From the NCBI GenBank assembly GCA_012270585.1, contig JAAXIB010000013.1, forward strand, positions 1-51,555: 51,555 nucleotides of DNA. Direction: 5' to 3'. The notes beneath the pieces are model-generated. The model had not been told where the DNA came from. It saw only the letters and a list, made by a program, of their open reading frames with translations, and did no database searches. This document shows positions 22,988 through 46,387 of the stretch, in pieces (the stretch's first letter is position 1; every line of letters begins with the position of its first letter). This stretch comes from Nitrospirales bacterium (GTDB lineage: Bacteria > Nitrospirota > Nitrospiria > Nitrospirales > UBA8639). The translations under genes were made by a program, and so were the position numbers.

Positions 22988-23005
22988 CTGTAACGCCACC
23001 GTAAC
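22988..23005 (+). promoter_or_regulatory. Pho-box-like direct repeat before the porin gene
   Basis: CTGTAAC-GCCA-CCGTAAC has two 7-base repeats spaced by four, the geometry of a PhoB site. It lies 94 bases before the porin ATG, with a TCTAAA about eight bases further on as a possible -10. The same TAAC-N7-TAAC pattern precedes ppx, the operon at 30101 and pstS. Confidence 0.6.
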
Positions 23006-28919: not shown

Positions 28920-28937
28920 GTTATGAGAATGTTACGA
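28920..28937 (-). promoter_or_regulatory. Pho-box-like direct repeat before ppx
   Basis: Read on the minus strand: TCGTAAC-ATTC-TCATAAC, 71 bases before the ppx ATG, with TTATAG seven bases beyond as a possible -10. It partly overlaps a perfect inverted repeat, ATAACA-ATAC-TGTTAT (28909-28924), which could be an alternative operator. Confidence 0.55.
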
Positions 28938-29968: not shown

Positions 29969-29991
29969 AATTTAACACCGGGACTGCGGCA

Positions 29992-30009
29992 ATGTAACCG
30001 TCAGATAAC
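29992..30009 (+). promoter_or_regulatory. Pho-box-like direct repeat before the unknown operon
   Basis: ATGTAAC-CGTC-AGATAAC matches the TAAC-N7-TAAC pattern found before the porin, ppx and pstS. It lies 91 bases before the ATG at 30101, and a TCTAAA follows six bases later, much as in the porin promoter. Confidence 0.55.
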
Positions 30010-30100: not shown

Positions 30101-32503
30101 ATGCTGATAAAAACCGAGCCGTCATCGTCAACCCTTACAGAATCTTCTTCTTACCTCCAACGAAGAGTCGAACGCCTGTCCGACTTATTCGGCACCGGTT
30201 CCGCAGATTCACGCGCCCGGAATCTCCCCTTCGCACCGGATGACGTGACGGCGGGTTCCGAAAACGAATACCAAACCGCGGTGTCGGGTACGTCGAAGCA
30301 TGTGGATCTCCCCATCACGCTGGAAACGTCGAATTTCTATAAAAACCTGATGAAACGAACGTGGCGCAAAGAGCTTGCCCCCGCACTTGAGTTTTACCTG
30401 GCTCACGAATCCAACGACATCTGGGAAAACAGTTGGGTCCGTTTCCCCAGGCGGACGCTCGGGCCCTTTGCTAGACAAGTGCTCCAACATGACCTCCTGG
30501 CCGATAAAAAAGACCCTGCGGGACCCCCGCGACGAGATATTGCGAAGGTGCTGTTTTATCAGAATGGGGAAGAGTGGGTGCGCGTCCCCATCAGTTACCT
30601 CTCGCGACTCGCACTCGCCGACGTGATGAGCGGCAAGGCTCCATCACCCGTTCGCCGCATCGGCGAACGCCTCATGGATCACTTTCTGAATGATAACATG
30701 TCTCCGGAAACGTGCATCTGCTACATCATGAACCTGCATCCGGATACCAAGTCGGGGCGTACCGTCGGGAAAGAAGCAAGCAAACGGTTTTTTCTCAGCC
30801 AGTTGCTGACCCTGTACGCCAACCGGAAGTTCGAGTTGCGCGAAACGGGCCAACGGGCCATGATCTATTTTGCGCCCCACCCGCCGATCCGTCAAAAACG
30901 TCTCAACGGTCTGATTTCCGATAATTTTTATCGCGAACTGTTCATGAACCCGTGTCTTTCAGGATGGGACAGCGGCCAAGACAAGCACGACTATATGCGG
31001 CTTTGCCATGAAGTGCTGTCACGCAGTCACCAGCACGTGATCGGAAAGCTGAAAGATGCCGGAATCATTACACGGAATCTGGTCGTCCCGACAAGTCCCT
31101 CCAACATCAGCCTGGCGAATAACGGCACCCACATCAGCTTGGGAAGCCGAAAATTAACGCAGCTTTCCCAAATTCTGCCCGGCGAATTTACGCCCCGCGA
31201 TGAAAAATATCTCGGCGATCTCGTGACGAAAGTCGTCGAGCATTTCCTTCCGTTATTCGTCGGAACCTACAGCGCCGCTCCGTATCGTTTGGACTTCCGG
31301 GACTTCCATCCGGAAAACGTGTTGGGCTTTCTCCCTCGTGAATTGGATCACCAATTTCTTCGTCTGCTCTGGCAGCGGTGGAAGCGAAAGGCCAGTTTGC
31401 GGTTCTTCGGGAAACCCATCACGCCCTTGGGGCCGTTGTGGTTGGACAAGGCGTTGAGCTACGGGCTCGGGATGCGAGGGGATTATATCCCTGACTTCCG
31501 ACTCGTCGATTATCTGGTCGTTCTGCCGAGCACGGAAGAATGTCCCGCCTTGGACGGCACGTTGGGGAACGACGTCAGGCTGAAACGTGACCTTGCCGAA
31601 CAGGGCATCTATGACGAGCGCATGTCCTTTTACCAACTTTACAAACTGCGAACGTTTGCCACAATGGGATTTTCCGGATTCGAAGGCCGGTACTACAGCC
31701 TGTTCGAAAGTCTCCTTGACGATATGGGAGAGGCCGCCGGTCTCCAGGCCTTCGTCACCGCGTTGGCGTTCAAATATATCTTCCAATTCGAGATACATCC
31801 TTCGGACGTCCCCGACGACCCCGCAACGGAGAGTGAACGGCGACAGATCTTTTTCGGGGCAGCCATCAATCTTCCCACCTTCTACGTTCGTGCCGAGACG
31901 TCGAATCGGTTTCTGAAACGCATCCTGGCCCGAACGCCGAAAGTCCGGCTCAGCCGGCGGTTTTCCTCCTATTACCGGGTCCATCATCGGGAATATCGCC
32001 AGGCCCTCTTGACGATCATGCGGGAAGACGGCGCCGATCTGATTGAAGCCTTTCAGCTACACGACGTCATGGATAAGCTCAAAAACCGACTCGACAACCC
32101 GGATGAATGCTCGGCGTTCGGGAAATTGACGAGAGGCATTCTTCAAGAAGGTGGGGTGACCTCCCCCTTCAGTCTTTCAGGTGAGGAGTGCAATAAAGCC
32201 GCTGAAGCCTATTACCGGCAAACGCTTCGCACGCGACATATCGAGGAAGCCCTTCAGGAATTGGAAGTTGACTGCGCCACCCTCGACGTCTGTCGGACGC
32301 CGACCCTTCACAAGAGCAAAGCTCTCGTGCAAGCCATCCTGGGGCCTTCCTCGTCCGCGCAAGCCTTTCTCGAACAGACAAAACCCGCTCTGATCGACGA
32401 AACGATCCTCCTCCCTCAACTCACGAAATTGATTCACCTGGTCTTGATCACCTTACTGGTCGATGAACAACGTTCCGGCGACGATGAATCCAAAATTGAT
32501 TAG
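30101..32503 (+). CDS. Unrecognised 800-residue protein, first gene of lipid-enzyme-like operon
   Basis: I do not recognise a family. The N-terminal 70 residues are serine/threonine-rich and probably disordered. The rest looks like a soluble mixed alpha/beta protein without membrane segments or signal peptide. Notable conserved-looking stretches are YFAPHPPIRQKRLNGLISDN, LANNGTHISLGS, YRLDFRDFHPENVLGFLPRE and FATMGFSGFEGRYYSLFESL; the dense HP, DFRDFHPEN and GFEGRYYS motifs suggest an enzyme. Its 3' end overlaps the PSD-like gene by 41 bases (or 20 if that gene starts at 32484), indicating translational coupling. A Pho-box-like site lies upstream. A role in phosphate-responsive membrane lipid metabolism is inferred from neighbours only. 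Confidence 0.75.
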   Translation: MLIKTEPSSSTLTESSSYLQRRVERLSDLFGTGSADSRARNLPFAPDDVTAGSENEYQTAVSGTSKHVDLPITLETSNFYKNLMKRTWRKELAPALEFYLAHESNDIWENSWVRFPRRTLGPFARQVLQHDLLADKKDPAGPPRRDIAKVLFYQNGEEWVRVPISYLSRLALADVMSGKAPSPVRRIGERLMDHFLNDNMSPETCICYIMNLHPDTKSGRTVGKEASKRFFLSQLLTLYANRKFELRETGQRAMIYFAPHPPIRQKRLNGLISDNFYRELFMNPCLSGWDSGQDKHDYMRLCHEVLSRSHQHVIGKLKDAGIITRNLVVPTSPSNISLANNGTHISLGSRKLTQLSQILPGEFTPRDEKYLGDLVTKVVEHFLPLFVGTYSAAPYRLDFRDFHPENVLGFLPRELDHQFLRLLWQRWKRKASLRFFGKPITPLGPLWLDKALSYGLGMRGDYIPDFRLVDYLVVLPSTEECPALDGTLGNDVRLKRDLAEQGIYDERMSFYQLYKLRTFATMGFSGFEGRYYSLFESLLDDMGEAAGLQAFVTALAFKYIFQFEIHPSDVPDDPATESERRQIFFGAAINLPTFYVRAETSNRFLKRILARTPKVRLSRRFSSYYRVHHREYRQALLTIMREDGADLIEAFQLHDVMDKLKNRLDNPDECSAFGKLTRGILQEGGVTSPFSLSGEECNKAAEAYYRQTLRTRHIEEALQELEVDCATLDVCRTPTLHKSKALVQAILGPSSSAQAFLEQTKPALIDETILLPQLTKLIHLVLITLLVDEQRSGDDESKID

Positions 32504-33539
32504 TTCAGGCCTGCATCAATACATAGACCGCGAAACCGCCAGTGTGCAAAGCGAGCAACTGTACGGGGACCGGGTCGTCAACTATCTCTATTCGGCGGTC
32601 CGGGAAAAGGCTCCGCTCCTGTTTAAAGCGTTCACCTCTTCGTCAAGTTCTTATCTGGTCGGCCTTTGGAAGTATGACGTCACCTTCGGCCCTGCGTGTT
32701 CAGGGGTCTCGTCGTTCTGCCGCAAGCTGGGCATCGATCTCTCGGAATGCGTGGACAACCCTGCGACGTTCGATTCCCCACGAAAAGTATTTGAACGAAA
32801 AATCCGGTATTGGGAACGTCGCCCCATGGACTCCGGGGCTTCCACTCTCGTTTCGCCTGCGGATGCGAAGCTGCTCCTGGGGTCCTTGCAGACCAGTTCT
32901 CAACTGTTTCTGAAGGGGAAATTTTTTGACGTGTACGAACTCTTGGGTCAGGAAAAGGCGTTGTGGCATCGGACGTTTCAAGACGGAGATTTTGCCATCT
33001 TTCGCCTGACGCCCGACGAATATCATTACAACCACACACCGGTTTCCGGTGTGGTCGTGGACTATTATGAAGTGGACGGCACCTATCACAGTTGTAATCC
33101 GGGTCCCATTCTTTCCGTGGTCACGCCCTATTCGAAAAATAAGCGGGTGGTCACCGTTATCGATACGGACGTTCCGGGCGGGACGCAGGCCGGACTCGTC
33201 GCCATGATTGAAATCGTGGCCTTAATGATCGGCGCGATCGATCAATGTTACAGCGAACGCTGTTACGACAACCCGCAACGGATGGAAATAGGTCTCTTCG
33301 TCAAAAAAGGGCAACCGAAAAGCCTGTACCGACCCGGGAGTTCCACCGACGTGCTTCTGTTTCAACGCGGGCGGATCGACTTCTGTCAGGACTTGCGCAT
33401 GAACCAATTGCGGCGCGACGCGGTCAGTCGATATTCGTTGGGATTTGGACGCCCGGTCGTCGAGACAGCGGTCAAAGTTCGCTCGACTATCGGCCAGGCC
33501 CTGCCCCCCACGCGCGAGACCGGGACTCACGTACCATGA
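32463..33539 (+). CDS. Divergent phosphatidylserine decarboxylase-like protein
   Basis: The 358-residue protein has the order of motifs of pyruvoyl decarboxylases of the PSD family: FERKIRYWERRPMDSGASTL followed by VSPADAKLL, then FRLTPDEYHYNHTPVSG (the histidine region) and GSS in YRPGSSTDVLLF near residue 290, where canonical enzymes self-cleave at Gly-Ser. A long extra N-terminal region and CYSERCYDNPQ are unusual. It is not the housekeeping enzyme, since canonical psd is at 9591. The start may be 32463 or 32484; neither has a strong ribosome site. It overlaps both neighbours (ATGA with the next gene). The substrate may be another serine- or amino-acid-headed compound. Confidence 0.72.
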   Translation: MNNVPATMNPKLISSGLHQYIDRETASVQSEQLYGDRVVNYLYSAVREKAPLLFKAFTSSSSSYLVGLWKYDVTFGPACSGVSSFCRKLGIDLSECVDNPATFDSPRKVFERKIRYWERRPMDSGASTLVSPADAKLLLGSLQTSSQLFLKGKFFDVYELLGQEKALWHRTFQDGDFAIFRLTPDEYHYNHTPVSGVVVDYYEVDGTYHSCNPGPILSVVTPYSKNKRVVTVIDTDVPGGTQAGLVAMIEIVALMIGAIDQCYSERCYDNPQRMEIGLFVKKGQPKSLYRPGSSTDVLLFQRGRIDFCQDLRMNQLRRDAVSRYSLGFGRPVVETAVKVRSTIGQALPPTRETGTHVP

Positions 33540-34400
33540 CCGACGTGCCGCATAGCTGGCTGGACGACCAAGGGGGGGGGCCTACTATTCCTGGGCATCG
33601 TCAGCCTTGCCGTGTTTCTTCTTTTTCGGTGGGCCTTTGCCATCCTCCCCCGGGAACAATGGCAAATCCTGGCCGTGCTCCCGCAACACCGGGCCGCCTC
33701 GAACCAGTGGCACGGGTTGAACCTGACCTACTATGGGTTCATCACGGCGAGTGCCGTCACGCTTGCCGTCGGAAATATGCTGTTTCTCCTGGGAGCGATT
33801 CACATCCCGCTTTCGACCTCCTTGTGGTTCGTGCTCTCTCTCATGTGCCTGACGGTTCCCGCTTCAAAAATCATAGCCAACGTCGTAGAAAAAAAAGTCT
33901 TTACCTTTACGATCGGGGGAGCCTCGTTCACGGGCCTCGTTATGGCGCCAGTGGTGGCCGTCGTGATCAACCGGATGCATCACCCCTCTGACGCGCTGCC
34001 GATTCTTCCGGTGCTCTCGGCCCTAGTGATCTCTTTTGCCCTTGGCGAAGGCATCGGAAGACTGGCCTGCATCAGCTACGGCTGTTGTTATGGGAAGCCG
34101 CTTTCCGCCTGCGCGCCGATCATGCAAACGTTGTTCAAGACCCTGCACTTTCGCTTTACGGGTGCCACAAAGAAAATTGCGTATGCCGGGAACCTTGAAT
34201 CCATTCCGGTGGTTCCCATTCAGGCCATCACGGCCATTATCTCCACGACGGTTTACTTGATCGGCATGGGATTATTCCTGACGGGACGTGTTGCGTCGGG
34301 ACTCTTTGTCTCCCTACTGATCACGCAAGTCTGGCGTGCCGTCTCAGAACCCTGGCGAGCGGATCACCGGGGACACGGATCGATTTCCATGTACCAGTAG
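33536..34400 (+). CDS. Lgt-like polytopic membrane protein, frame broken at a G9 tract
   Basis: Translation should start at the ATG at 33536, which overlaps the upstream stop (ATGA). After about 12 codons comes a run of nine G (33572-33580). With nine the frame runs out of the family frame; with eight it reads GGGLLFLGIVSLAVFLLFRW, a good membrane helix, and continues into the long frame that is open from 33612. That frame has about six membrane segments and FALGEGIGRLACISYGCCYG, the pattern of prolipoprotein diacylglyceryl transferase (Lgt) relatives. The frame ends at a TAG (34398-34400) after GSISMYQ, with further in-frame protein beyond. It could be phase-variable, an assembly error or a pseudogene. 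Confidence 0.7.
33572..33580 (+). repeat. Homopolymeric G9 tract inside coding sequence
   Basis: Nine consecutive G lie near the 5' end of the Lgt-like gene. Eight would restore the frame. Poly-G tracts at this position are the classic substrate for slipped-strand phase variation, and also a common sequencing-error site. Confidence 0.8.
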
Positions 34401-34619
34401 ATGGCCGTCGTTGGCATAGTCTACCTGGCCGCCGTCACGACGTATGTGCCGTCTTCCTCTTTTGCCGCCCCCGACCCTCTCATGGGACTTCACTCCCTAT
34501 GGGACCCTGCGGTGCTGCTGTTTCTTCAAAGCATCTGGGTCGGCATGTTTCTCTTCATGGGAAGAAGCCACATGACGGGTTCCGTGCTGTCCTTCTTCGT
34601 GCGCAAGGAGCATTTGTGA
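34401..34619 (+). CDS. C-terminal part of the Lgt-like protein, or small membrane protein
   Basis: The 72-codon frame starts with an ATG immediately after the TAG of the preceding frame and is in the same reading frame. It encodes one membrane helix at the start (AVVGIVYLAAVTTYV) and another near residues 36-54, with a basic end (FFVRKEHL). Lgt-type proteins continue with a final membrane helix after the G-x-x-S-x-x-Q segment, so this looks like the severed C-terminus. TAG would replace a TGG or CAG. Reinitiation at the TAGATG junction is possible. GTGA couples its stop to the TPR gene. Confidence 0.6.
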   Translation: MAVVGIVYLAAVTTYVPSSSFAAPDPLMGLHSLWDPAVLLFLQSIWVGMFLFMGRSHMTGSVLSFFVRKEHL

Positions 34620-35347
34620 GACGCCCCGTCTTTCCGGGCACCTGTCTTCTCTGTCTCCTGCTCATCCTTTCGCCCCATCTCCCGGCGTGGAGTCAAAAGG
34701 TTTCCATCCCTGAAGGCTATCCCGAATCCCTTCGCCAACAACGTGACGACTACACCGCAGCCTTGATCGAGGATCTCAATAATCCTCAACTCTGGAAGCA
34801 ATTGTCACACGTGTACATGAACATGGCAGACGACCTGCTCACCAACAAATCAGAAAGGATCGAAGCCTATGACAAAGGACTGAAAGCCGCCACCCAAGCC
34901 ATGAGGCTTCACCCGAATGACGCCGAAACCCATTTCCTCTATGCCGCAAACCTGGGGAGCGCCACGAAATTGCGAGGCATCACGTCGGGGGTCGTCAACC
35001 TCTCGGAAGTCACGAAACACGTGGATCGCGCCGTTGAACTCGACCCGCACCACGCCCCATCGTTGCAAATGAAAGGAGGCTTATTGGCCGAGTTGCCCTG
35101 GTATCTCGGCGGCAACGCGGAACTGGCCAAGGACTATCTTCGCCGGGCCATCGAAGCGGACGGCAAGTATACCAACGCTTGGATCATTCTGGCCAAGCTG
35201 CTGATCAAAGAGGGAAAGCTTGAAGAAGCCCGCGCTCAACTACTCGCCGTCATTCAGGCCCGGAACCCGCATTACCCCTATACATGGGAAAAACGATTTC
35301 GGCCTGAAGCGCAACGACTCCTGGATGAGCTTCAAAATCGCAAGTAA
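34616..35347 (+). CDS. Exported TPR-repeat protein
   Basis: The 243-residue protein starts at a GTG (34616) overlapping the upstream stop, with a perfect AAGGAG six bases before. It has a signal peptide (RRPVFPGTCLLCLLLILSPH, cleaved after LPAWSQ or nearby) and then tetratricopeptide repeats (AYDKGLKAATQAMRLHPNDA, HVDRAVELDPHHAPSLQ, YLRRAIEADGKYTNAWIILA). It is probably periplasmic and serves as a protein-binding scaffold. It closes the operon; its stop is followed by an 83-base gap before the CYTH/CHAD gene. Confidence 0.82.
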   Translation: MRRPVFPGTCLLCLLLILSPHLPAWSQKVSIPEGYPESLRQQRDDYTAALIEDLNNPQLWKQLSHVYMNMADDLLTNKSERIEAYDKGLKAATQAMRLHPNDAETHFLYAANLGSATKLRGITSGVVNLSEVTKHVDRAVELDPHHAPSLQMKGGLLAELPWYLGGNAELAKDYLRRAIEADGKYTNAWIILAKLLIKEGKLEEARAQLLAVIQARNPHYPYTWEKRFRPEAQRLLDELQNRK

Positions 35348-35430: not shown

Positions 35431-36801
35431 ATGGACTGCGTTCTACGGCAAACGCTGGAGCGGGAAGTTAAGCTCAAGACGGGCCACCCGTTTCGCCTGC
35501 CCCATTTTCCGGGTGAACCGCTTCCTCCTCGACTGTTTACCTCCACCTACTTCGATACCGTTGATTTTAGGCTGGCCCGGTTGGAAGTGGAGATGACTTC
35601 CGGTCGCCCGACCCCGCCGGCACCCCTGGAAGATCTCCTGTTTGCCTTGTTGCGGCGTGAACCGTTGAGGGCCATTGCGAAACTCCAGACGCGTCGTTCC
35701 GGCATCAGGATTCAACCTCTTGACAGACCCATCGCCGACGTGGTCGTCGACCGGGTCAGGATTCTCAACACCCGGCGAGTGGTCGGGCATCTGAACGAGA
35801 TCGAAGTGGAACTCCGCTCAGGCAAGGAAAAGGAATTTGCCGCGATCGTGACGGCCCTTCGTGAAGCAGGTGCGTACGATGGAGATTCACGCCCGAAAGT
35901 TTTTCAAGCCTTAAACCTGAATTTTTCGAGTCCCTGTCTTCCCGAATCAGCTCCCTTCTCAGAACGCCTCAAGACCATCCTGCAAAAACAACTCCGGGAT
36001 ATCCTGCTCCACGACCCCGGAATGCGATTCGGCAAAGACTCGGAAGAACTCCACCAGATGCGTGTCGGGATCAGAAGGTTTCGAGCCCTCCTGCGGGCGT
36101 CGAGGGTCTTACTGGAGCCGGAATGGTATGCGTCCCTGCAAGAGGAACTCAGATGGCTGGGCGCTAAGCTTGGAACCGTTCGGGACCAGGACGTCCTGAT
36201 CGAGCAGCTTTATACGGAAGCCCACATTCTTCCCCCTGCAGAACGAAAAATGTTCGAACGATTGTTGACCACGTTTGAAACCCATCGTTCCCAAGCCCGC
36301 CGGCAACTACTCGACACCCTTCGTAGCGATCGCTATCTGGATCTCTTGAGCCGCCTCGAACGGGCCGCCCAAGCCCCGGCCTTGCGTGACGCCCCCGAGA
36401 GTTCTCTGATACACTTGGCTGCGCAAGAATTCAAAGAGTTGGTCAAAGCCGGCAAGCGTGGGACTGCCGACCCCTCGGATCGCGAACTGCATCAACTGAG
36501 AATTCGCACCAAACGGACGCGATATGCCGCCGAACTCGCCCTCGAAACCATGGGGAAACCCGCTATCCGGTTCGTCCGCCAAACCAAACGGAACCAGGAT
36601 ATCCTAGGTGAGCACCAGGACGCCGTCGTCACGGAGGAGCGACTCCGGCAATTGCTCCATACGACCCGTGGCGTGAAAACCGCGTTTGCCATCGGACAGA
36701 TCGTCGAAAGACTCCGGGCTCGTCGACGCCGTACGAAAGCAATTTTCCCACGAGAATGGGCGAAACTCAAAAAGCGCGGCCGTGAGGTGTTTGCCCTATG
36801 A
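35431..36801 (+). CDS. CYTH-CHAD domain protein with a shortened CYTH domain
   Basis: The 456-residue protein starts with the CYTH ExExK motif (EREVK, residues 10-14) and YFDTVDFRLARLEVEMTSG. CYTH domains normally have about 35 more residues of strand between YFDT..LAR and the LEVE segment, so an internal part of the tunnel fold is missing. From about residue 185 a complete CHAD domain follows with two histidine-bearing basic helices (HQMRVGIRRFRALLRA and HQLRIRTKRTRYAAELAL), which bind polyphosphate. The next gene is ppk1, fitting a polyphosphate-granule role. No ribosome site is obvious before the ATG. Confidence 0.85.
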   Translation: MDCVLRQTLEREVKLKTGHPFRLPHFPGEPLPPRLFTSTYFDTVDFRLARLEVEMTSGRPTPPAPLEDLLFALLRREPLRAIAKLQTRRSGIRIQPLDRPIADVVVDRVRILNTRRVVGHLNEIEVELRSGKEKEFAAIVTALREAGAYDGDSRPKVFQALNLNFSSPCLPESAPFSERLKTILQKQLRDILLHDPGMRFGKDSEELHQMRVGIRRFRALLRASRVLLEPEWYASLQEELRWLGAKLGTVRDQDVLIEQLYTEAHILPPAERKMFERLLTTFETHRSQARRQLLDTLRSDRYLDLLSRLERAAQAPALRDAPESSLIHLAAQEFKELVKAGKRGTADPSDRELHQLRIRTKRTRYAAELALETMGKPAIRFVRQTKRNQDILGEHQDAVVTEERLRQLLHTTRGVKTAFAIGQIVERLRARRRRTKAIFPREWAKLKKRGREVFAL

Positions 36802-36819
36802 CCTTCCTGAAGGTACTAC

Positions 36820-36845
36820 TCCCTCTCCCTGGGAGGGAGAGGGGT
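36820..36845. repeat. CCCTCTCCC/GGGAGAGGG hairpin repeat
   Basis: CCCTCTCCCTGGGAGGGAGA followed by GGGGTG lies in the CHAD-ppk1 gap. It is a compact copy of the dispersed family and lacks a T-tract, so it is not an obvious terminator. Confidence 0.6.
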
Positions 36846-36875
36846 GCATGACGCAATGAAACAGAGGTGAAACCC

Positions 36876-39026
36876 ATGGCAATCGGTTCCGCTGAAACCA
36901 AATCCCCGACTGTTTCTCCGACGTCGGACCTTGATGATCCCAAGCTGTATTTGAATCGCGAGCTCAGTTGGCTCCAATTCAACGCCCGCGTACTCGAGGA
37001 AGGGGAAGATCAAGGCAACCCGCTTTTGGAACGAGTGAAGTTTCTGTCGATCTTTTCGAGCAACCTGGATGAATTTTTCATGATTCGGATTTCAGGGTTG
37101 AGGGAACAATTGTCCGGCGGGGTGCGTGAAGGCCCTCCGGACGGCATGACCACCTCGGAACAGTTGACAGCCGTTCGGCAGGAAGTCCTGTGTCAACTGG
37201 CGCGGTTTTCCGACTGCTGGCAAAACGACATCCTGCCGAAGCTCAACGCCCAGGACGTGCACGTGCTTCGCTACCGTCAACTGCAACCGAAACAACAACA
37301 ATTACTCCGCGGGTATTTTTCCAAAGAAATCTTTCCGGCGCTCACCCCCTTGGCCTTCGATCCTTCCCATCCATTCCCCCATATTTCCAACCTGAGTTTG
37401 AATTTAGCCGTCGCGGGGAAGGATCCCGAGCGAGGAGAATGTTTCGCCCGCGTCAAAATCCCCAATATTTTCCCGCGTCTCGTCCGTATCCCCAGCGAAG
37501 ACATGGTCAACGAGGCGGACCAATTCGGCCTGCCCGACTCGGGAGCCGACAACTTCGTCTGGATCGAAGACGTTGTTGCCGCCAACCTCGACCTCCTGTT
37601 CCCGGGGATCACCATTCACGCGGCCCACCCCTTTCGGGTGACGCGGGACGCCGATTTCGAAATTGAAGAAGACGAGGCCGCCGACCTGTTGGCTTCGATT
37701 GAAGAGCAGGTGGACAACCGGCACTTCGGCTCGGTGATCCGGCTGGAAATCGACCAGGCGACGCCCGATCATATCCGGGACATCCTGATCAGGAATCTCT
37801 CGTTGGCTCCTTACCAGGTCTACACGCAGGACCTGCCTCTCGGTCTGTCCAGCCTCATGGAGTTGACGCGCATCGATCGATCGGATTTGAAATATCCACC
37901 GTTCGTTCCGGAGATCCCGGAGTCCCTCAATAAGAAGGAACCCCTGTTCTCGGTCATCCGGCGTGGCGACGTCGTGCTGTACCATCCCTACGACAGTTTT
38001 ACTCCGGTCGTCGATTTCGTGCGCGAGGCGGCCGGCGATCCCAACGTGCTGGCCATCAAACAGACCCTCTATCGAGTGGGAGCCAATTCCCCGATCGTCG
38101 AGGCGTTAATGGAAGCGAGAGTCAACGGGAAACAGGTCGCGGTCCTGCTTGAGCTTAAGGCGCGATTCGATGAAGAAAACAACATCGAATGGGCCAGGAA
38201 ACTGGAGGATGAGGGCATCCACGTGGTCTATGGGGTCTTTGGGCTGAAAACCCACGCCAAGATGTGCCTGGTCATCCGGCGCGACGAGGACAGCATCCGG
38301 CGGTACGTCCACCTGGGCACGGGCAACTATAATCCGGTGACGAGCCGGATGTATACCGACCTCAGTTTCTTTACCTGCGACCCGGCCGTGGGCGCGGACG
38401 TGGCCGATCTCTTCAACGCGTTAACCGGCTACTCACGTAAAAATTCCTACGTCAAACTGCTCGTGGCGCCTCAATTGATGCGGGAACAACTTCTGGAGCG
38501 GATTGAGCAGGAGATTCGACGGCACCAGGAAAAGGGAGACGGGTACATGGCGTTCAAGATGAACGCCCTCGTGGACACACAATGTATTCAAGCGCTCTAT
38601 CGGGCATCCCAAGCCGGTGTCAAAATCGACCTTCAGGTTCGAGGGGTCTGCGCGCTTCGTCCGGGGATTCCCGGAATCAGTGAAACCATCACCGTAACCT
38701 CGGTCGTCGGCCGATTTCTGGAACACGCACGACTCTATTATTTTCGCAATGGCGGGCAGGAAGAACTGTTTCTCGGAAGCGCTGATCTCATGCCCCGTAA
38801 TTTGGACCGGCGCGTCGAACTCCTGTTCCCGGTCGAGTCATCTCAACTTCGGAAAGTCCTCGTCGAAGACCTTCTGCAAGTGGCTCTTCACGACAACGTC
38901 AAGACCCGCCAGTTGCTGTCGAACGGGGACTATACCCGTCTCCAGCTCGTACCCGAGCATTCCCCCCTGAGTTCCCAGGAATGGTTTCTGGAAAATTGGA
39001 GAAGCCGCGGCACGAGTGCCTTGTAA
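36876..39026 (+). CDS. ppk1: Polyphosphate kinase 1
   Basis: PPK1 makes polyphosphate from ATP reversibly through a phosphohistidine intermediate. The 716-residue protein shows LYLNRELSWLQFNARVLEE at the N-terminus, NLDEFFMIRISG, the catalytic histidine in LKTHAKMCLVIRR, RYVHLGTGNYNP and the second conserved histidine-domain region LGSADLMPRNLDRRVELLFP. I use the ATG at 36876, which has GAGGTG seven bases upstream, rather than the GTG at 36867. It follows the CHAD gene and converges with phoU. Polyphosphate synthesis next to pst and ppx is coherent. Confidence 0.97.
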   Translation: MAIGSAETKSPTVSPTSDLDDPKLYLNRELSWLQFNARVLEEGEDQGNPLLERVKFLSIFSSNLDEFFMIRISGLREQLSGGVREGPPDGMTTSEQLTAVRQEVLCQLARFSDCWQNDILPKLNAQDVHVLRYRQLQPKQQQLLRGYFSKEIFPALTPLAFDPSHPFPHISNLSLNLAVAGKDPERGECFARVKIPNIFPRLVRIPSEDMVNEADQFGLPDSGADNFVWIEDVVAANLDLLFPGITIHAAHPFRVTRDADFEIEEDEAADLLASIEEQVDNRHFGSVIRLEIDQATPDHIRDILIRNLSLAPYQVYTQDLPLGLSSLMELTRIDRSDLKYPPFVPEIPESLNKKEPLFSVIRRGDVVLYHPYDSFTPVVDFVREAAGDPNVLAIKQTLYRVGANSPIVEALMEARVNGKQVAVLLELKARFDEENNIEWARKLEDEGIHVVYGVFGLKTHAKMCLVIRRDEDSIRRYVHLGTGNYNPVTSRMYTDLSFFTCDPAVGADVADLFNALTGYSRKNSYVKLLVAPQLMREQLLERIEQEIRRHQEKGDGYMAFKMNALVDTQCIQALYRASQAGVKIDLQVRGVCALRPGIPGISETITVTSVVGRFLEHARLYYFRNGGQEELFLGSADLMPRNLDRRVELLFPVESSQLRKVLVEDLLQVALHDNVKTRQLLSNGDYTRLQLVPEHSPLSSQEWFLENWRSRGTSAL

Positions 39027-39445
39027 CGGCCTTGCCTCGCTTCTCGCCGTCTTTCGAAATTGCCGGGCACAATGATCGTTGTAAGGACCTACTCGCTGAA
39101 TGCACGAAGGTGAAATTTATCACCATTTTAGAGATATATTACATCATAATAGTGTCATTCTAGTACAATTTAGATGCAAATTGAGTGTTTTTCTGAACAT
39201 TTATGATTGTCTGTCATCCCCAACTCCCTCTCTGTCATCCTTGACGCTTGCCCTCGATGTTTGTAATCGAGGATCCAGAGTTTTTGCTTTTCCCCCCTCA
39301 CCCCAGCCCTCTCCCACGATGGGGAGAGGGGGAATCGGGAATGACAAAAGAAGGTTATTTTCATACCAATGACAGATAAGGGAACCGGGGTGTCAGGAGG
39401 CGTGGTGTCGCGCCGCAGCCCGCGGGCACCGCCGGGCCTGGAGGC
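39027..39445. other. Convergent ppk1/phoU intergenic region, repeat-rich
   Basis: 419 bases without a gene. It is AT-rich at first (about 39110-39200), then holds a GATCC-type repeat relative near 39232-39285, a CCCTCTCCC hairpin at 39294-39332 and a TTTTCATACCAATGACA copy near 39358 shared with the window start. Confidence 0.55.
39294..39332. repeat. CCCTCACCCCAGCCCTCTCCC-type hairpin repeat
   Basis: CCCCTCACCCCAGCCCTCTC followed by CCACGATGGGGAGAGGG, nearly identical to the copy at 27191. Confidence 0.7.
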
Positions 39446-40114
39446 TCAGATCGCTTGCGGGGGGATCGTATGGCGGATGATTTTTCCTTCAACCATATAG
39501 ACCACCAGTTCCGCGACGTTCGTCGCATGGTCGGCAATCCGTTCAATGTACTTTGAAATAAAGGAAAGCCGAATGGCCCGGCTGATCGTCTTGGGATTTT
39601 CCATCATGAAGGACAAGAGTTCCCTGAACAACTGTTCCGTCAGAATATCGACGAAGTCATCATCCTGAATGACTTTCCTGGCCAACGCCGAATCCATTTT
39701 GACAAAGGCGTCCAACGATTCTTTCACCATGATACGGGCACGCTCGGCCATGTGAGGAATGTCGATATACGGCTTCAACTGGGGCTCTTCGCTGAGTTCG
39801 ATCGATCGCTCGCAGATGTTTTCCGCCAAATCGCTCATCCGCTCCAATTCAGAAGAAATCTTCATGGCGGTAGTCACAAAGCGTAAATCTTTGGCGACCG
39901 GCTGATATCGGACCAACGCATCAAGAGACATTTCATCAATTTCCACGTCCAACGCATTCACGTTGCGATCGTTCTCGATGACCCGCTGCGCCAGGGCCTC
40001 ATCGCGTTCGACCAGGGCGGTCATGGCATTCCTGATCTGGTCTTCGACCAGGGAACCCATCGTGAGAATCTTGTGCTTGATTCTGTCAAACTCTTCTTCG
40101 AAGTGACGTTCCAT
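39446..40114 (-). CDS. phoU: Phosphate signalling protein PhoU
   Basis: PhoU modulates Pst transport and keeps PhoR quiet when phosphate is plentiful. The 222-residue protein is two PhoU three-helix bundles. Seen here are the N-terminal HFEEEFDRIKHKILTMGSLV, the E/D-rich metal-binding motifs ALDVEIDEMSLDAL and ERMSDLAENICERS in the first half, and ERIADHATNVAELVVYM in the second. It is 32 bases downstream of pstB and the last gene of the pst operon. Confidence 0.97.
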   Translation of the reverse strand: MERHFEEEFDRIKHKILTMGSLVEDQIRNAMTALVERDEALAQRVIENDRNVNALDVEIDEMSLDALVRYQPVAKDLRFVTTAMKISSELERMSDLAENICERSIELSEEPQLKPYIDIPHMAERARIMVKESLDAFVKMDSALARKVIQDDDFVDILTEQLFRELLSFMMENPKTISRAIRLSFISKYIERIADHATNVAELVVYMVEGKIIRHTIPPQAI

Positions 40115-40146
40115 ATCTTCTCATTTCCTCTTCAAACCCGGTCTCC

Positions 40147-41004
40147 TCACCCAAAACGACCGGTCACGTAATCTTCGGTCCGGCTGTCCGATGGATTGGT
40201 AAAAATGGTTTTGGTCGCGGCGTATTCAATCAATTCCCCCATGAGAAAAAAGCCCGTCAGGTCGGAGATGCGCGCGGCCTGTTGCATGTTATGCGTGACA
40301 ATCACCACGGTGAGTTGCTCCTTCAAGGAATGCAACAACTCTTCGATCTTCGCGGTCGATATGGGATCAAGCGCCGAACAGGGCTCATCCATCAGTAAGA
40401 CTTCGGGGTTGACGGCCAAGGCCCGCGCAATACACAAGCGCTGTTGTTGCCCCCCGGACAGGCTCAGCGCGCTGTGATGCAGGCGATCCTTGACTTCTTC
40501 CCAGAGTCCCGCGCCCTGCAGGCTTTTTTCGACAATTCCGTCCAGTACGGAACGGCGCCGTATTCCCTGTAGCTGCGGTCCATACACCACGTTCTGGTAA
40601 ATCGACTTGGGAAACGGATTTACTTTCTGGAAGACCATGCCGACCCTGGTCCGCAGGTCGGTCACGTCCACCGACGGATCGTAAATGTCCTTGCCGTCAA
40701 GACAAATCCTGCCGATGAGTCGTGCCCCTTCAACCAGATCGTTTAACCGATTGAAACACCGTAATAACGTCGACTTCCCGCAACCGGACGGACCGATAAA
40801 GGCCGTGACCTGATGCGTCGGGACGGTCAGGGCGACGTTGAACAGCGCCTGCTTCTCGCCATAAAAAAAGTTGGTCTCTTCGACCGTGATCTTGGAGTTG
40901 TTGTCTTGAGAACGTTCAGAAGAAGCCATGGTTGTTTCCGTCGTCTGCGTGTGTTGGGCAGCAGTTTGATGCGGTTGTGGTAACGTGTCAATTCGTGAAT
41001 TCAT
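40147..41004 (-). CDS. pstB: Phosphate ABC transporter ATPase
   Basis: PstB hydrolyses ATP to power the PstSCAB phosphate importer on the cytoplasmic side. The 285-residue protein has Walker A ([19 protein letters not shown]), the signature [16 protein letters not shown], Walker B ([13 protein letters not shown]) and the switch histidine in [14 protein letters not shown]. The first 35 residues form a polar glutamine/threonine-rich extension absent from typical PstB; a later start at 40929 would remove most of it. It is 21 bases after pstA. Confidence 0.97.
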
Positions 41005-41025
41005 AATATTGAAACCAGTTGAACC

Positions 41026-42660
41026 TTACACCGCCGACGCCTTGAACTTTTTCTGCATGTAATTGCGGAGGGCCACGGCGCTGAGATTCAACACAATGAC
41101 CACCATGACCAGGATCAGGGTGGTGACGTACACCATCGGCTTCGCCGCTTCCACGTTGGGGGACTGAAAGCCTACGTCGAAGATATGGAAGCCCAGGTGC
41201 ATGAATTTGCGTTCGAAGTGCAGAAACGGGAAATGGTGGTCCAAGGGAAGCGCCGGGGCCAATTTGACGACCCCGGTCAACATCAAGGGGGCTACTTCAC
41301 CCGTTGCGCGTGCCACCGCGAGAATCAGTCCCGTCAAAATGCCCGGCAGGGCGCAGGGAAGGATCACGCGCAGCATACTTTCAAACTTGGTCGCGCCCAA
41401 CGCCAGGGACCCTTCACGGTATTCTCGGGGGACGGCTGAAAGCCCTTCTTCCGTGGACACGATCACCACCGGAACCGTCAACAGGGCCAAAGTAAACGAC
41501 GCCCACAGAATGCCACCCGTGCCATACGTCGGAGTCGGCAACGCTTCGGGATAGAATAGGTTGTCAATGGTCCCGCCGACCGCATAGACGAAGAACCCCA
41601 ACCCGAAGACGCCGAACACGATCGACGGCACGCCGGCCAAGTTATTCACGGCAATGCGGATCACCCGCACGATCAGTCCCTGGCGCGCGTACTCCCGCAG
41701 GTAGAACGCAGCCAGAACCCCGAACGGCACCACGGCTACGCTCATGATCAATACCATCATGACGGTGCCAAAGATCGCCGGGAAAATGCCCCCTTCGGTA
41801 TTGGCTTCCCGTGGTTCTTCGCTCAACACGGACCAAAAATTCATGAAGTATCTGAGCATTTTTTCGAAGAAGCCCATGTCGTTGGGACGAAGGGCTTTCA
41901 CGATTTGACCGACCACGAGGCGTTTCTCCCGGCCGTTTGTCTCGACGAGGAGCACGGAATGCTCGTCGAGTTTGCGGCTCAATGCCCGAAGGGTCTCAAC
42001 GTGCTTCCGGTATCGGGTTTCCAACCGATTGGTGTCGGCTTGGAACTCGGCTACTTCCGGGGTTTCACGTTGACCTTGTAATCCCAACTCCCGGATTCTC
42101 AAACGGGTTTCTTCGATTTCATAATTTATGTCGCCGATGACGTCTCGTTGCAGGTGCTCAATCTCGTCATGCAGATCATTGGCCCGCTCGATCAGCGGCT
42201 GTAACGCCTTCCATCCTTCCTGATTGCCGGAAGCGACGACGGCTTCGCCGCGTGAGACCTCCCGAATCCGGCCGTAAAAATTCCCCCATTCCCTCCGTTC
42301 AAACGCCGCCACGTCTTTCGGGAAGTCCGCCGACGTGATCTGATCGGTATCGACCCACCTGAAGTCCAGGCCATAGAGGTCACGATTCCCGACTTTCAGC
42401 CTCACCCGCGTTTTTCCTTCGGGAAATTCCGGTGTCTCCGAATGGGGGATGACTTCTTCCCCTTTCAATTCTCCGAGCACGTGCGTGCCGTCCGTGAGTG
42501 TCATTTCCACAAGGGCATGGGGCCAGAAAAACCCGAGGCCATTGATCATAATCAGGAGAAGGACGCCGCCGACCATGAGAAGTGAGGCGGCTACTGCCGT
42601 GCCGCACAACCATACGAACAGGGTCCCTGAGTCGAGAAATTTTTTGATCCTGTCAGACAT
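41026..42660 (-). CDS. pstA: Phosphate ABC transporter permease, long form
   Basis: The C-terminal 280 residues are a standard PstA permease with six membrane segments and the EREGSLALGATKFE-like coupling loop (YREGSLALGATKFESML). The 544-residue total is nearly twice the usual length. After a first membrane helix (about 19-40) comes a 230-residue extracytoplasmic insert with strands and a coiled coil (LIERANDLHDEIEHLQRDVI; TRLRIRELGL). Long PstA forms occur in several Gram-negative groups; the insert's role is unknown. It pairs with an enlarged PstC 9 bases upstream. Confidence 0.94.
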   Translation of the reverse strand: MSDRIKKFLDSGTLFVWLCGTAVAASLLMVGGVLLLIMINGLGFFWPHALVEMTLTDGTHVLGELKGEEVIPHSETPEFPEGKTRVRLKVGNRDLYGLDFRWVDTDQITSADFPKDVAAFERREWGNFYGRIREVSRGEAVVASGNQEGWKALQPLIERANDLHDEIEHLQRDVIGDINYEIEETRLRIRELGLQGQRETPEVAEFQADTNRLETRYRKHVETLRALSRKLDEHSVLLVETNGREKRLVVGQIVKALRPNDMGFFEKMLRYFMNFWSVLSEEPREANTEGGIFPAIFGTVMMVLIMSVAVVPFGVLAAFYLREYARQGLIVRVIRIAVNNLAGVPSIVFGVFGLGFFVYAVGGTIDNLFYPEALPTPTYGTGGILWASFTLALLTVPVVIVSTEEGLSAVPREYREGSLALGATKFESMLRVILPCALPGILTGLILAVARATGEVAPLMLTGVVKLAPALPLDHHFPFLHFERKFMHLGFHIFDVGFQSPNVEAAKPMVYVTTLILVMVVIVLNLSAVALRNYMQKKFKASAV

Positions 42661-42669
42661 GGAATCCCT

Positions 42670-44970
42670 TTAAAATTGGCTGTATCTGGCCCGCAGCCGC
42701 TGCCGGACAATTTCCGCGAGGGTGTTGACGATGGACGTAAATACGAACAACAGCAGACCGGCCAGGAACAGTAGACGATACAGCGTGCCCCCATGCGGGG
42801 CTTCGGGCATCTCCACGGCAATGTTCGCTGATAAGGTTCGGAATCCATTAAAGAGGTTCATGTCCATTACCGGGGTGTTGCCCGTCGCCATCAGCACGAT
42901 CATGGTTTCTCCCACGACCCGCCCCAACCCGATCATGAGAGCGGAGAACACTCCCGGACTCGCCGAGATGATGACCAATTTCGTCAGGGTCTGCCACGGG
43001 GTGGCCCCGAGAGCCAATGATCCGGCGATCAGATGGGGCGGGACGTTGCTCAGCGAATCCTCGCTGATGCTGAAAATCGTGGGGATCACGGCCATGCCCA
43101 TGGCAAAGGCAATGACCAACGCGTTTCGCTGGTCGTACGTCAACCCGAACGTCGACAGCAACCATTGCTTATAGTTCGCATCGAAGAGCCAGAATTCAAT
43201 CTGGTGATTCAACTGGAGACAGCACCACACCGTTCCGGCGAGGACCAGTACGAACACCGCTAATTCCCTCACGTTTCCCGCGTGGCCCTTCAGGCGTGCA
43301 GGAAGAAATTGCCAACCGACGCAGACCAACACCACGGCCAGCGGGGCCAGGAGAAACATGGCGACCACGGCGGGGAAAATTTTTTCCAACAACGGCGCGA
43401 ACCACAACCCGGCCAGGAAGCCCAGGACAACCGTCGGGAAGGCCGCCATGATCTCCACGACCGGTTTGACCACGGCGCGAATGTTGGGACGCATGAACAT
43501 CGCGGTATAGATCGCTCCCAGCACGGCGAGGGGCGTCGCCAGCAACATCGCGTAGATCGTCCCTTTCAGCGTGCCGAACATGATCGGCCACAGGCCGAAT
43601 TTCGGCTCGAACGCGTCGGACCCACCGGTTGATTGCCAAATATGGAGAGGCTCTTCGTACCCTTCATAGAGTACGGGAAAGAACAAGGACGAAAACGTGG
43701 ATTCGGGATGTTCATTCTCAATGTCATAGGTGCTCAGCCGTCCCGAGTCATCGAGCACCAAGGCGCCGTCGGTTTTCGGTGCAAACATCGCAGACACAAT
43801 GGCGGAACCGTTTCCGGGGATTTGGATGAGCGTCTGACCGGAGGTCGAATGATGCACGGCCACCTCACCCGACGCGTCGGCCGTGAGAAACCCTTTATCC
43901 CGAAGCGACGGGGAAATGACGGTCACAGTCCCCCCATGCGGAGCCAGGTCCCGAATCTTTTGAAGACGGGGATCACCTCCCACGTCCGGATCGATCACGG
44001 ACATCCACACGGCGACCGTTCCTCTTCCCGTCCCGACCACGATGGACCGATCGCCAATGAGATAGGAAAGGGCGGTGATGGACGTCCCGGCGGAGTACAT
44101 CCCCATCAGTCTCGGGTTTTGGATATCCCGAATGTCCCAGTACAGCAACCTGCCGTCTTCCGTGCCTCCCAAAAGGGTTTCGCCCAAGTCGTCCAGGAGC
44201 AGCACCGACAGCGCAGCCACGCCTTCATCGGTGATCTCGGCCTGTAAGAGTTCCGCTTCCGTTTCAAGCGCAAACAGCCCCTCGGCCTCCGATTCCTGCA
44301 TCTTGGTGAGAAATAATCGTCCCGACCCGGTCAAGGCGGCGGCGATGGTGCCGCTGTCCGTCTCCCGGTAGGCCAATCGCACAATGGGGGCACCGGTCGG
44401 GACGGCCTCGAACGGCTCGCCCGAGGTCACCACCGGTTCGGTTTTTCGTACGTCATCTTCGAACGCGATTCGAAACGTGACGTACAAAGGAATGACTCGA
44501 CCGATTCTCGTCCCAAGCCCGTAGACGTGGTTTTTCCCCGGAGAGCGGGCCAGCGAGGTAATTTCCCCGTTCTCGAAATCCGGCACGGACTTGAGAGGGA
44601 TCGGGGTGCCGGCGGAAAACGCATAGAACGCAATGTCCCCGTTGCGGAGTACATATCCCACTTCCATGTATTCATTGATCCCCACACTGACGTTTTGTGG
44701 TTCCTGAGGAGCCTCACCTAATGTGTCGATTCGCACGGAGGTTTCCCGGCTCCACGAAGCGGCATAGAATAATGGAGCGACTTCAATGAACAGATAGGCA
44801 AAAATACCAAAGATGCTGAAGATCGTCGCCCATCCTCCAAGGGTGATCACTCCCCTCGCGCCATGATCGGCCCAACGCCGTAATGTCCGGGAGGTCATCT
44901 TCGAAAGGAACGACGACCCAGGAGGGGATGCCATCTCAACCTGACTCGCTGTGGGATCAGCCTGGTTCAT
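42670..44970 (-). CDS. pstC: Phosphate ABC transporter permease with propeller-like insert
   Basis: The 766-residue protein has a standard permease in its C-terminal third (MFGTLKGTIYAMLLATPLAV; LIAGSLALGATPWQTLTKL as coupling loop). After the first membrane helix, about 400 extracytoplasmic residues contain WD/PQQ-propeller-like strands (DGRLLYWDIRDIQNPRL, GRGTVAVWMSVIDPD, SGEVAVHHSTSGQTLIQI, SGRLSTYDIENEHPES). Enlarged PstC proteins are known in proteobacteria. A propeller facing the periplasm could contact PstS, PhoR or the envelope; that is inference. It lies between pstS and pstA. Confidence 0.93.
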   Translation of the reverse strand: MNQADPTASQVEMASPPGSSFLSKMTSRTLRRWADHGARGVITLGGWATIFSIFGIFAYLFIEVAPLFYAASWSRETSVRIDTLGEAPQEPQNVSVGINEYMEVGYVLRNGDIAFYAFSAGTPIPLKSVPDFENGEITSLARSPGKNHVYGLGTRIGRVIPLYVTFRIAFEDDVRKTEPVVTSGEPFEAVPTGAPIVRLAYRETDSGTIAAALTGSGRLFLTKMQESEAEGLFALETEAELLQAEITDEGVAALSVLLLDDLGETLLGGTEDGRLLYWDIRDIQNPRLMGMYSAGTSITALSYLIGDRSIVVGTGRGTVAVWMSVIDPDVGGDPRLQKIRDLAPHGGTVTVISPSLRDKGFLTADASGEVAVHHSTSGQTLIQIPGNGSAIVSAMFAPKTDGALVLDDSGRLSTYDIENEHPESTFSSLFFPVLYEGYEEPLHIWQSTGGSDAFEPKFGLWPIMFGTLKGTIYAMLLATPLAVLGAIYTAMFMRPNIRAVVKPVVEIMAAFPTVVLGFLAGLWFAPLLEKIFPAVVAMFLLAPLAVVLVCVGWQFLPARLKGHAGNVRELAVFVLVLAGTVWCCLQLNHQIEFWLFDANYKQWLLSTFGLTYDQRNALVIAFAMGMAVIPTIFSISEDSLSNVPPHLIAGSLALGATPWQTLTKLVIISASPGVFSALMIGLGRVVGETMIVLMATGNTPVMDMNLFNGFRTLSANIAVEMPEAPHGGTLYRLLFLAGLLLFVFTSIVNTLAEIVRQRLRARYSQF

Positions 44971-45000
44971 GAGGAAGTCGTTGACGCGTAAATAACAAAG

Positions 45001-45034
45001 CCATATCCGAAAGCCGAGGCTTTGCAGGACATGG
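45001..45034 (-). terminator. Intercistronic hairpin between pstS and pstC
   Basis: CCAT-CC-AAAGCC pairs with GGCTTT-GG-ATGG in a nested stem, followed on the minus strand by CTTTGTTATTT. It could partly terminate or protect the pstS message and raise PstS over the membrane subunits, as in other pst operons. Confidence 0.5.
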
Positions 45035-45101
45035 CCTTGTCATTATTTGTTCTCAATAGTCGTACACTTCGGCTTTCAGGTCAAGCCAAGACGACCGACG
45101 C

Positions 45102-46124
45102 TTACATTTCACCCAATTTCTTGGCGATGAGGGTTTGCGGCAAAGGGAAATAGCCGTCCTTAATGACGATATTCTGCCCTGCTTTGCTATACACGTATTT
45201 CAGAAATTCCGCGACCAACGGCGGCAGCGGTTTTCCCGGAGCTTTATTCACGTACAGGTAGAGGAACCGCGCCAACGGATACTTGCCGGCTGAGGCATTG
45301 GCAAACGTGGGCTCATAGCACCCTTCGCCGCTCTTGGCGGACAACGGAATCACCCGGACGCCCGAGGTGCGATACCCGATGCCACTGTACCCGAGACCAC
45401 CCCGATCCTCCGTCACGCCCTGAACCACGGAAGCCGAGCCGGGTTGCTCCTTGACCTCATCCTTATAGTCGCCTTTCTTCAACACCTTCTTCTTGAAAAA
45501 CCCATAGGTCCCCGAGGCTGAATTTCGACCATACAGGCTCACCCTCGTGCTTTTCCAGTTCCCATCAAGCCCTGCTTTCCCCCAGGTGTCGATATTCACG
45601 GAATGCCCGCGCCTCCGGGTTTTTGAAAAGGCGGCATCCACTTCTTCCATACTTATACATTTCACAGGATTGTCTTTATTGACGTACACGGCCAGCGCGT
45701 CAACGGCCACGGGGAAGTTGGTGGCTTTATACCCGAATTTCGCCTCGAATTTGTCCATCTCTTTCGCTTTCATTTGCCGCGACATGGGGCCGAGTTGAGC
45801 CGTCCCTTCAATTAAGGCCGGGGGAGCCGTGCTGGAGCCTTTCCCTTCAATTTGAATCTTGACGTTGGGGTATTCTTTTCTGAACCCCTCGGCCCACAGC
45901 GTCATGAGATTGTTGAGGGTGTCGGACCCGATGCTGTTCAGGTTCCCGGAAACCCCGCTTACTTGCTTGTAACCTTTCCAGGCCGGATCCACCATGGAAT
46001 CAGAGGCGGCCCAACTTTGGACTGCACTACCCATACCTACTGACAGAAGAAGGAAGCTCAGAGATACAATCTCCCTGCTGAAAAACCGACTTGTGAGCTG
46101 TGCCAAGACGAACCGTCTCATCAT
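45102..46124 (-). CDS. pstS: Phosphate-binding protein PstS
   Basis: The 340-residue periplasmic phosphate-binding protein has a signal peptide (ending about VQSWAAS) and PstS motifs: LNSIGSDTLNNLMTLWAEGF, IEGKGSSTAPPALIEGTAQL (the phosphate-binding SGS/T region), MSRQMKAKEM, and GRNSASGTYGFFKKKVL. The ATG at 46124 has AGGAGG eight bases upstream. It opens the pstSCAB-phoU operon. Two TAAC-type Pho-box-like sites lie upstream. Confidence 0.95.
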   Translation of the reverse strand: MMRRFVLAQLTSRFFSREIVSLSFLLLSVGMGSAVQSWAASDSMVDPAWKGYKQVSGVSGNLNSIGSDTLNNLMTLWAEGFRKEYPNVKIQIEGKGSSTAPPALIEGTAQLGPMSRQMKAKEMDKFEAKFGYKATNFPVAVDALAVYVNKDNPVKCISMEEVDAAFSKTRRRGHSVNIDTWGKAGLDGNWKSTRVSLYGRNSASGTYGFFKKKVLKKGDYKDEVKEQPGSASVVQGVTEDRGGLGYSGIGYRTSGVRVIPLSAKSGEGCYEPTFANASAGKYPLARFLYLYVNKAPGKPLPPLVAEFLKYVYSKAGQNIVIKDGYFPLPQTLIAKKLGEM

Positions 46125-46369: not shown

Positions 46370-46387
46370 GTTACACCTCCGTTAATT
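46370..46387 (-). promoter_or_regulatory. Pho-box-like repeat before pstS (distal)
   Basis: On the minus strand AATTAAC-GGAG-GTGTAAC, an exact TAAC-N7-TAAC, 245 bases before pstS. It would imply a long leader or a second promoter. Confidence 0.45.

Follow-up and report, generated by a model that had tools for sequence, protein, structure and literature searches.

In this study, we examined a group of overlapping genes in a 51,555-nucleotide stretch of DNA (referred to here as the window) from a Nitrospirales bacterium (GenBank assembly GCA_012270585.1, contig JAAXIB010000013.1) and found that three of them, designated U, P and G, belong together: judged by gene order in relatives, U-P-G is a conserved unit in which the linkage of the three genes is obligatory. 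The genes occurred in that order and on the same strand in all 54 loci fetched from Nitrospirota and Desulfobacterota, with inserted genes between them in some. In our estimate the chances are about even that the unit is a phosphate-regulated three-enzyme module that makes an amino-acid-derived membrane lipid, most likely when phosphate is scarce.

Conservation of the three genes

A preliminary description of the window had proposed an operon of four genes, the last of which encodes an exported TPR protein (T). The linkage of the first three was upheld, whereas T was found at Nitrospirales loci only, and the conserved unit is therefore one of three genes, not four. The co-occurrence of the genes in relatives, on which the proposal of an operon depended, proved widespread in two phyla, and homology searches indicate that the trio is not specific to Nitrospira, since ~11% of the sampled Desulfobacterota genomes carry U. 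Matches to U were identified in 46 of 395 such genomes (44 of them near full length) and the subfamily of P in 44 of the 395, and U and that subfamily were present together in 43 of 45 genomes, with U running off the end of a contig in one of the exceptions (G612). Three of 13 sampled genomes of the window's own genus have U, which is scattered through the order and is also found in a second Nitrospirota family, and a scan of GTDB genomes detected it in Desulfosarcina widdelii and D. cetonica. The viral contigs and plasmids that were searched had no relatives of U, and no further neighbor was conserved throughout the loci. In a quick tree of U, the Nitrospirales formed a clade nested among Desulfobacterota, and the second Nitrospirota family (loci L036 and L037) was also placed among Desulfobacterota, apart from the Nitrospirales; this placement of the two groups tentatively suggests at least two transfers of U.

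Association with phosphate genes and a shared upstream repeat

The polyphosphate and pst genes noted in the preliminary description are indeed present around the unit, which in the window lies between ppx and ppk/phoU/pst and is surrounded by an IMPase-family gene and those for CHAD, PPK1, PhoU and PstBACS. Genes of the pst, phoU or ppk type also flank the trio in several Desulfobacterota genomes, in differing arrangements. In 10 of 37 Desulfobacterota genomes phoU was located within 10 kb of the trio, compared with an expectation of 0.94 for which every PhoU domain was counted as a locus of its own (Poisson p 6e-8), and on the U tree proximity to phoU was a scattered trait that required 12 changes. 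Together with the repeat described below, this proximity bears out the link between the unit and phosphate that had been proposed.

The TAAC units of the repeat, in 11-bp phase, were first seen in an alignment of upstream DNA, and an exact TAAC-N7-TAAC is located upstream of U at 29995-30009 in a candidate operator that is conserved in three same-genus relatives. The repeat was defined on the U promoter of the window and these relatives and then tested elsewhere. It occurs four times in the window, where 0.35 occurrences are expected, always on the coding strand and upstream of U, ppx, pstS and an OprP-type porin gene; the whole genome has eight occurrences, the other four of which are not upstream of recognizable phosphate genes. 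Matches at seven or more of the eight repeat positions were found upstream of U in 29 of the 54 loci, versus 11.5% of 469 control genes (p 5e-12), and a repeat match was also found upstream of other phosphate genes in the loci in 16 of 34 cases. After near-duplicates, among them the three same-genus relatives, had been removed and the window kept, the match upstream of U was retained in 24 of 45 loci. The specificity of the spacing is the strongest point in favor of the repeat, as other spacings, from 2 to 16, were matched in 2 to 10 of the 54 loci (sense direction). We regard TAAC-N7-TAAC as a candidate Pho-type operator, or Pho box, for this lineage that in Desulfobacterota is also enriched upstream of U and of phosphate genes, and as a possible handle for mapping phosphate regulons in these lineages. 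The Pho-box-like site that had previously been suggested upstream of U has to be replaced by this different 11-bp direct repeat: the E. coli-type box, a direct repeat of CTGTCAT, had no match in the window at three or fewer mismatches and was not enriched upstream of U in the 54 loci.

Predicted activities of P, G and U

The reading of P as a divergent pyruvoyl decarboxylase of the phosphatidylserine decarboxylase (PSD) family was supported by its match to PF02666 (Table 1). Residues D134, H188, H191 and S294, the last in a G-[SGA]-S-T site, are invariant (D134, H191 and S294 in 45 sequences). From general knowledge of the family, we take D134 and H191 to be the catalytic Asp and His of PSD and S294 to be its autocleavage Ser, and because these residues of the PSD machinery are kept, P is expected to be a pyruvoyl decarboxylase. 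It is nearest to bacterial phosphatidylserine decarboxylases (the solved PSD chains 7cnw/6l06 and PRK00723). Its best NCBIfam score, 136.7 bits, is below the PSD equivalog cut-off of 371.

G matched PF01790, the Lgt family, at 39.1 bits (cut-off 24.9), and its intact relatives also scored above the cut-off. Four residues of E. coli Lgt that have been assigned, in a paper on its structure, to the site of diacylglyceryl activation (R143, R239, E243 and R246; PMC4728403) align to GR, WR, SE and LR of G, where they are at least 94% conserved. In the same alignment N146 is replaced by Cys, H103 is lost and the HGGL motif becomes FxGL. By these residue tests G is a homolog of Lgt and not an Lgt, and as it keeps the arginines of Lgt but not E151, N146 or H103, the natural reading of its sequence is that of a transferase with another acceptor.

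The 800-residue U had been left unplaced in the preliminary description, and it remains so at the level of sequence: no match to a known family, and thus none to a well-known unrelated one, was found in Pfam, NCBIfam, PHROGs or PDB sequences, even with a 51-sequence profile. Weak matches to NifB and DEAD_assoc were dismissed as chance. The conserved motifs of U are GxExE (G52, E54, E56), WENSWVR, DNTSPET, NNGTHxSLGS, SAAPYR, FEGR and ESERRQ, and the idea that it belongs to the glutamine synthetase/GCS superfamily was put forward from such motifs before any structural result. The superfamily motifs have been listed, including the GxExE common to PafA and GCS2 (PMC2588565). In U, GxExE is on a predicted strand with G52, E54 and E56 conserved at 94% or more, but the position h of the superfamily motif GhExE is Ser/Thr, and E528-x-R530-x2-S533, set against the Ex[RK]x2D of strand 6, has the ExR without the Asp. 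When a second model of U (a Desulfosarcina sequence as query, seven sequences in the alignment) was compared using VIA-align, the top match was 1tt4, the Salmonella YbdK, with a Z of 7.4 (root-mean-square deviation 6.4, 246 residues aligned; next match 3.2), although a Z under 8 may reflect merely a common arrangement. The aligned range starts in U at model residue 65, where GSENE has its second Glu, and in 1tt4 at residue 19, which is the second Glu of GIELE if that entry follows the native numbering, as in E. coli YbdK.

Tentatively, this model and the motifs suggest that U is a glutamine-synthetase-fold (GCS2/YbdK-like) carboxylate-amine ligase, though not a proven member of that group. Several results count against the assignment. 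The second model is poor (mean pLDDT 52.7, pTM 0.56), a Foldseek search with it returned nothing at an E value of 0.001 or better, and comparison by hhalign with alignments of GCS2, glutamine synthetase and YbdK gave no profile-profile support. The first AlphaFold model, of the window's U (pLDDT 47.5), matched only helical proteins and was unusable. In addition, U does not have the [HD]x[NH] motif of superfamily strand 4, with H344-x-S346 instead if the strand is equivalent. Because of the poor model, the lack of Foldseek and profile support and the two superfamily motifs that are absent or partial, U is only perhaps a ligase.

The unit in the window

The genes for U, P and T were confirmed at the positions described for them (Table 1), as were the overlap of U and P (41 bases, or 20 if P starts at Met 32484), the ATGA at 33536 that puts the start of G within the end of P and the GTGA at 34616 that puts the start of T within the end of G. 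The TAGATG at 34398, which had been described as a further junction between genes, is not one but lies inside G. The protein T has a signal-peptide-like N-terminus and matches TPR models, and it weakly resembles the periplasmic lipid/solute carriers BstC and TAtT, both below cut-off. Its gene is seemingly truncated in one genome (G013; L010 2298-3116).

A canonical psd (9591-10241, minus strand) adjoins pssA (8803-9753, minus strand) in the window, and a canonical lgt is present elsewhere in the window genome, as it is separately from the trio in most carriers. P and G are therefore second, divergent copies, and the view that the unit does not serve housekeeping phosphatidylethanolamine synthesis, which had been put forward from the distance to the canonical psd, is supported and extends to lipoprotein synthesis.

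Table 1. Positions of the unit, its upstream repeats and its phosphate-related surroundings in the window.
Feature	Position	Strand	Remarks
U	30101..32503	+	800 residues; no Pfam/NCBIfam/PDB sequence match
P	32463..33539	+	PSD-family pyruvoyl decarboxylase (predicted); PF02666 116.8 bits (cut-off 22)
G	33536..34619	+	Divergent Lgt homolog (PF01790), interrupted in the window genome
G9 homopolymer	33572..33580	+	Site of the frame shift of G relative to intact relatives
G, open part 1	33612..34400	+	262 residues from GTG; stop is the in-frame TAG 34398-34400 (relatives: GTG)
G, open part 2	34401..34619	+	72 residues; in relatives, the C-terminal portion of this one protein
T (exported TPR protein)	34616..35347	+	GTG start overlapping the stop of G (GTGA); Nitrospirales loci only
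Candidate Pho-type operator	29973..30009	+	TAAC units at 29973, 29995 and 30006 (11-bp phase)
TAAC-N7-TAAC 5' of OprP-type porin gene (23070+)	22991..23005	+	
TAAC-N7-TAAC 5' of ppx (28848-)	28920..28934	-	
TAAC-N7-TAAC 5' of pstS (46124-)	46370..46384	-	
Phosphate context	35431..46124	.	CHAD, PPK1, PhoU, PstB, PstA, PstC, PstS

In relatives, intact G is a single open reading frame of ~350-360 residues. In the window, a G9 tract that three same-genus relatives do not have puts the Lgt body out of frame with the ATG at 33536, and a TAG at 34398 is in frame inside G where relatives have CAG-GTG-ATG and continue for a further 72 residues in the one reading frame. The PF01790 match spans this TAG, and the G profile is matched by each of the two open parts. 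Hence the Lgt homology of the polytopic protein described earlier was retained, but not its single intact reading frame. When the window's G is compared with relatives, the ratio of nonsynonymous to synonymous substitution rates (dN/dS) lies between 0.18 and 0.28, within the range of intact copies, and so the damage is either recent or an error of sequencing or assembly; U, P and T of the window are intact, with dN/dS of 0.14 to 0.20. Phase variation at the G9 tract as a conserved switch was considered and rejected, since the tract is missing from the three relatives.

Some neighbors of the trio are confined to particular lineages. One of these, a gene for a HAD-family phosphatase, is upstream of U in seven loci of the second Nitrospirales family (including L032 6537-7229, L034 6353-7075 and L035 10186-11001). 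Two Nitrospirales genera have genes for PhoX-type alkaline phosphatases, 61% identical to each other, close to the trio (L032 12944-14455 and L011 6583-8187). The gene for a protein of ~800 residues with a GT4 glycosyltransferase domain is a neighbor of U in Desulfosarcina and also in a single genome of the second Nitrospirota family (L018 6897-9395, L019 478-2921, L037 11365-13782), and a DUF2062 gene follows G in some loci, both the glycosyltransferase and DUF2062 neighbors being confined to particular lineages.

A possible lipid pathway and its alternatives

If the unit does make an amino-acid-derived lipid, G would move diacylglyceryl from phosphatidylglycerol to a small acceptor of amino-acid or peptide type, not to prolipoprotein, with release of glycerol-1-phosphate; P would decarboxylate the amino-acid head group by pyruvoyl chemistry; and U would spend ATP on forming an amide bond during construction of the acceptor or the head group. 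An aminolipid would result, taking the place of lipids of the phosphatidylethanolamine type. In Nitrospirales the exported TPR protein would be added, perhaps as a periplasmic carrier, and in the window genome the pathway would be newly damaged or mis-assembled, since G reads as interrupted. The order of the steps, the substrates and the phosphorus-free product are what we infer. A sulfate reducer is known to exchange over 90% of its phospholipids when limited for phosphate (PMC5193443), although by way of other genes than those of the trio. A more specific version, in which an Lgt-type transferase no longer tied to lipoprotein maturation passes diacylglyceryl from phosphatidylglycerol to an amino-acid acceptor, a PSD-type enzyme then decarboxylates the head group and a new family of glutamine-synthetase-fold ligases completes it, is possible but doubtful; its product in Nitrospira and sulfate reducers would be an aminolipid of ether or amide type that contains no phosphorus. 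Of the phosphate-controlled membrane-lipid or lipid-transfer pathway that had been proposed originally, the link to phosphate is supported, the lipid pathway is the best available reading and the TPR protein weakly resembles carriers. Three further observations tell against a lipid pathway of this kind: phosphate genes are missing from the surroundings of many loci, among them most of those sampled from the second Nitrospirales family (f3); the PSD family also holds non-lipid decarboxylases, such as tryptophan decarboxylases; and G has neither G145 nor E151 of Lgt (Cys in G), and the changes G145A and E151A/Q inactivate the E. coli enzyme (PMC4728403).

The existence of those tryptophan decarboxylases would suit a soluble small-molecule pathway, for a signal, an osmolyte or a phosphonate-like compound, in which P acts on a free amino acid, U ligates, much as small-molecule ligases do if its fold is that of YbdK, and G is a membrane exporter or an acyl-carrier step. 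We consider this rather unlikely in view of the closeness of P to bacterial phosphatidylserine decarboxylases and the retention in G of the lipid-activating arginines of Lgt. The Lgt homology could instead point to lipidation of a protein or peptide under phosphate starvation, with U making a peptide or isopeptide bond like PafA, with which it has GxExE in common, P decarboxylating a peptide residue and G adding diacylglyceryl to give a surface lipopeptide, for which the exported TPR protein of Nitrospirales would also be fitting. This appears unlikely, as most carriers have a separate canonical lgt and no conserved small peptide gene was found beside the trio in the 54 neighborhoods, in which open reading frames of 70 residues or more were screened. 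Very unlikely, in our view, is a stress-specific duplicate of phosphatidylethanolamine synthesis combined with lipid transfer, in which P makes phosphatidylethanolamine from phosphatidylserine and G and U have roles in trafficking. Membership of P in the PSD family with intact catalytic residues, and the weak likeness of the TPR protein to TAtT and the sterol carrier BstC, are compatible with it, but no pss accompanies the trio, save for the distant pssA-psd pair of the window, P is far under the equivalog cut-offs, and it would be surprising if extra phospholipid were made under a phosphate-starvation operator.

A different kind of explanation is that the window's copy is a decaying operon and that nothing functional is encoded in the window genome, a view that would fit whatever function the intact trio has in other genomes. 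The frameshift and in-frame stop of G argue for it, and operon loss does occur, because one genome (G023; L013 6886-7134; also L007/L030) has only a remnant composed of a C-terminal TPR fragment and an N-terminal fragment of U whose extended match contains one TAG. Nevertheless, the dN/dS of G is like that of its intact counterparts in relatives, U, P and T of the window are undamaged, and we view decay as a minority possibility that deserves to be kept in mind.

Significance

The unit ties an 800-residue family that has no Pfam model to two enzymes of lipid type and to phosphate control, in carriers from two phyla that are central to the cycling of nitrogen and sulfur. We found no paper in the open-access literature that describes a pathway with the enzymes of the trio. 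Lipid change under phosphate starvation is known as a kind of system, and it is the U-P-G enzymes that would be new. A non-lipoprotein role of the Lgt fold would, if true, also be new to our knowledge. Phosphorus-free lipids are used to signal phosphate limitation in the environment (PMC5193443), and an unassigned lipid would become directly searchable through a new pathway, if true.

Comparison with known systems

Each protein of the unit can be set beside a known family from which it departs. P matches the PSD family over its full length and keeps the Asp, the His and the autocleavage Ser, but it is a separate subfamily that is always found with U and G, the canonical psd being elsewhere. 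G is polytopic like Lgt and has invariant or nearly invariant equivalents of R143, R239, E243 and R246, whereas the Lgt signature G142-RLGNFINGELWG-154 is GRLACISFGCCYG in G, with E151, N146 and H103 lost. U resembles the GCS2/YbdK ligases in the GxExE on a predicted strand, in FEGR, which is like ExR, and in having 1tt4 as its best structural match, but differs in its length (800 versus 370 residues), in the absence of detectable profile similarity and in its strand-4 motif. As a whole, the unit is closest in kind to the lipid replacement that occurs under phosphate starvation through Agt glycolipids and OlsF ornithine lipids, as in Desulfovibrio alaskensis (PMC5193443). Although U, P and G match no glycosyltransferase or ornithine-lipid acyltransferase family, both are phosphate-regulated, both are found in sulfate reducers and both probably involve the chemistry of lipid head groups.

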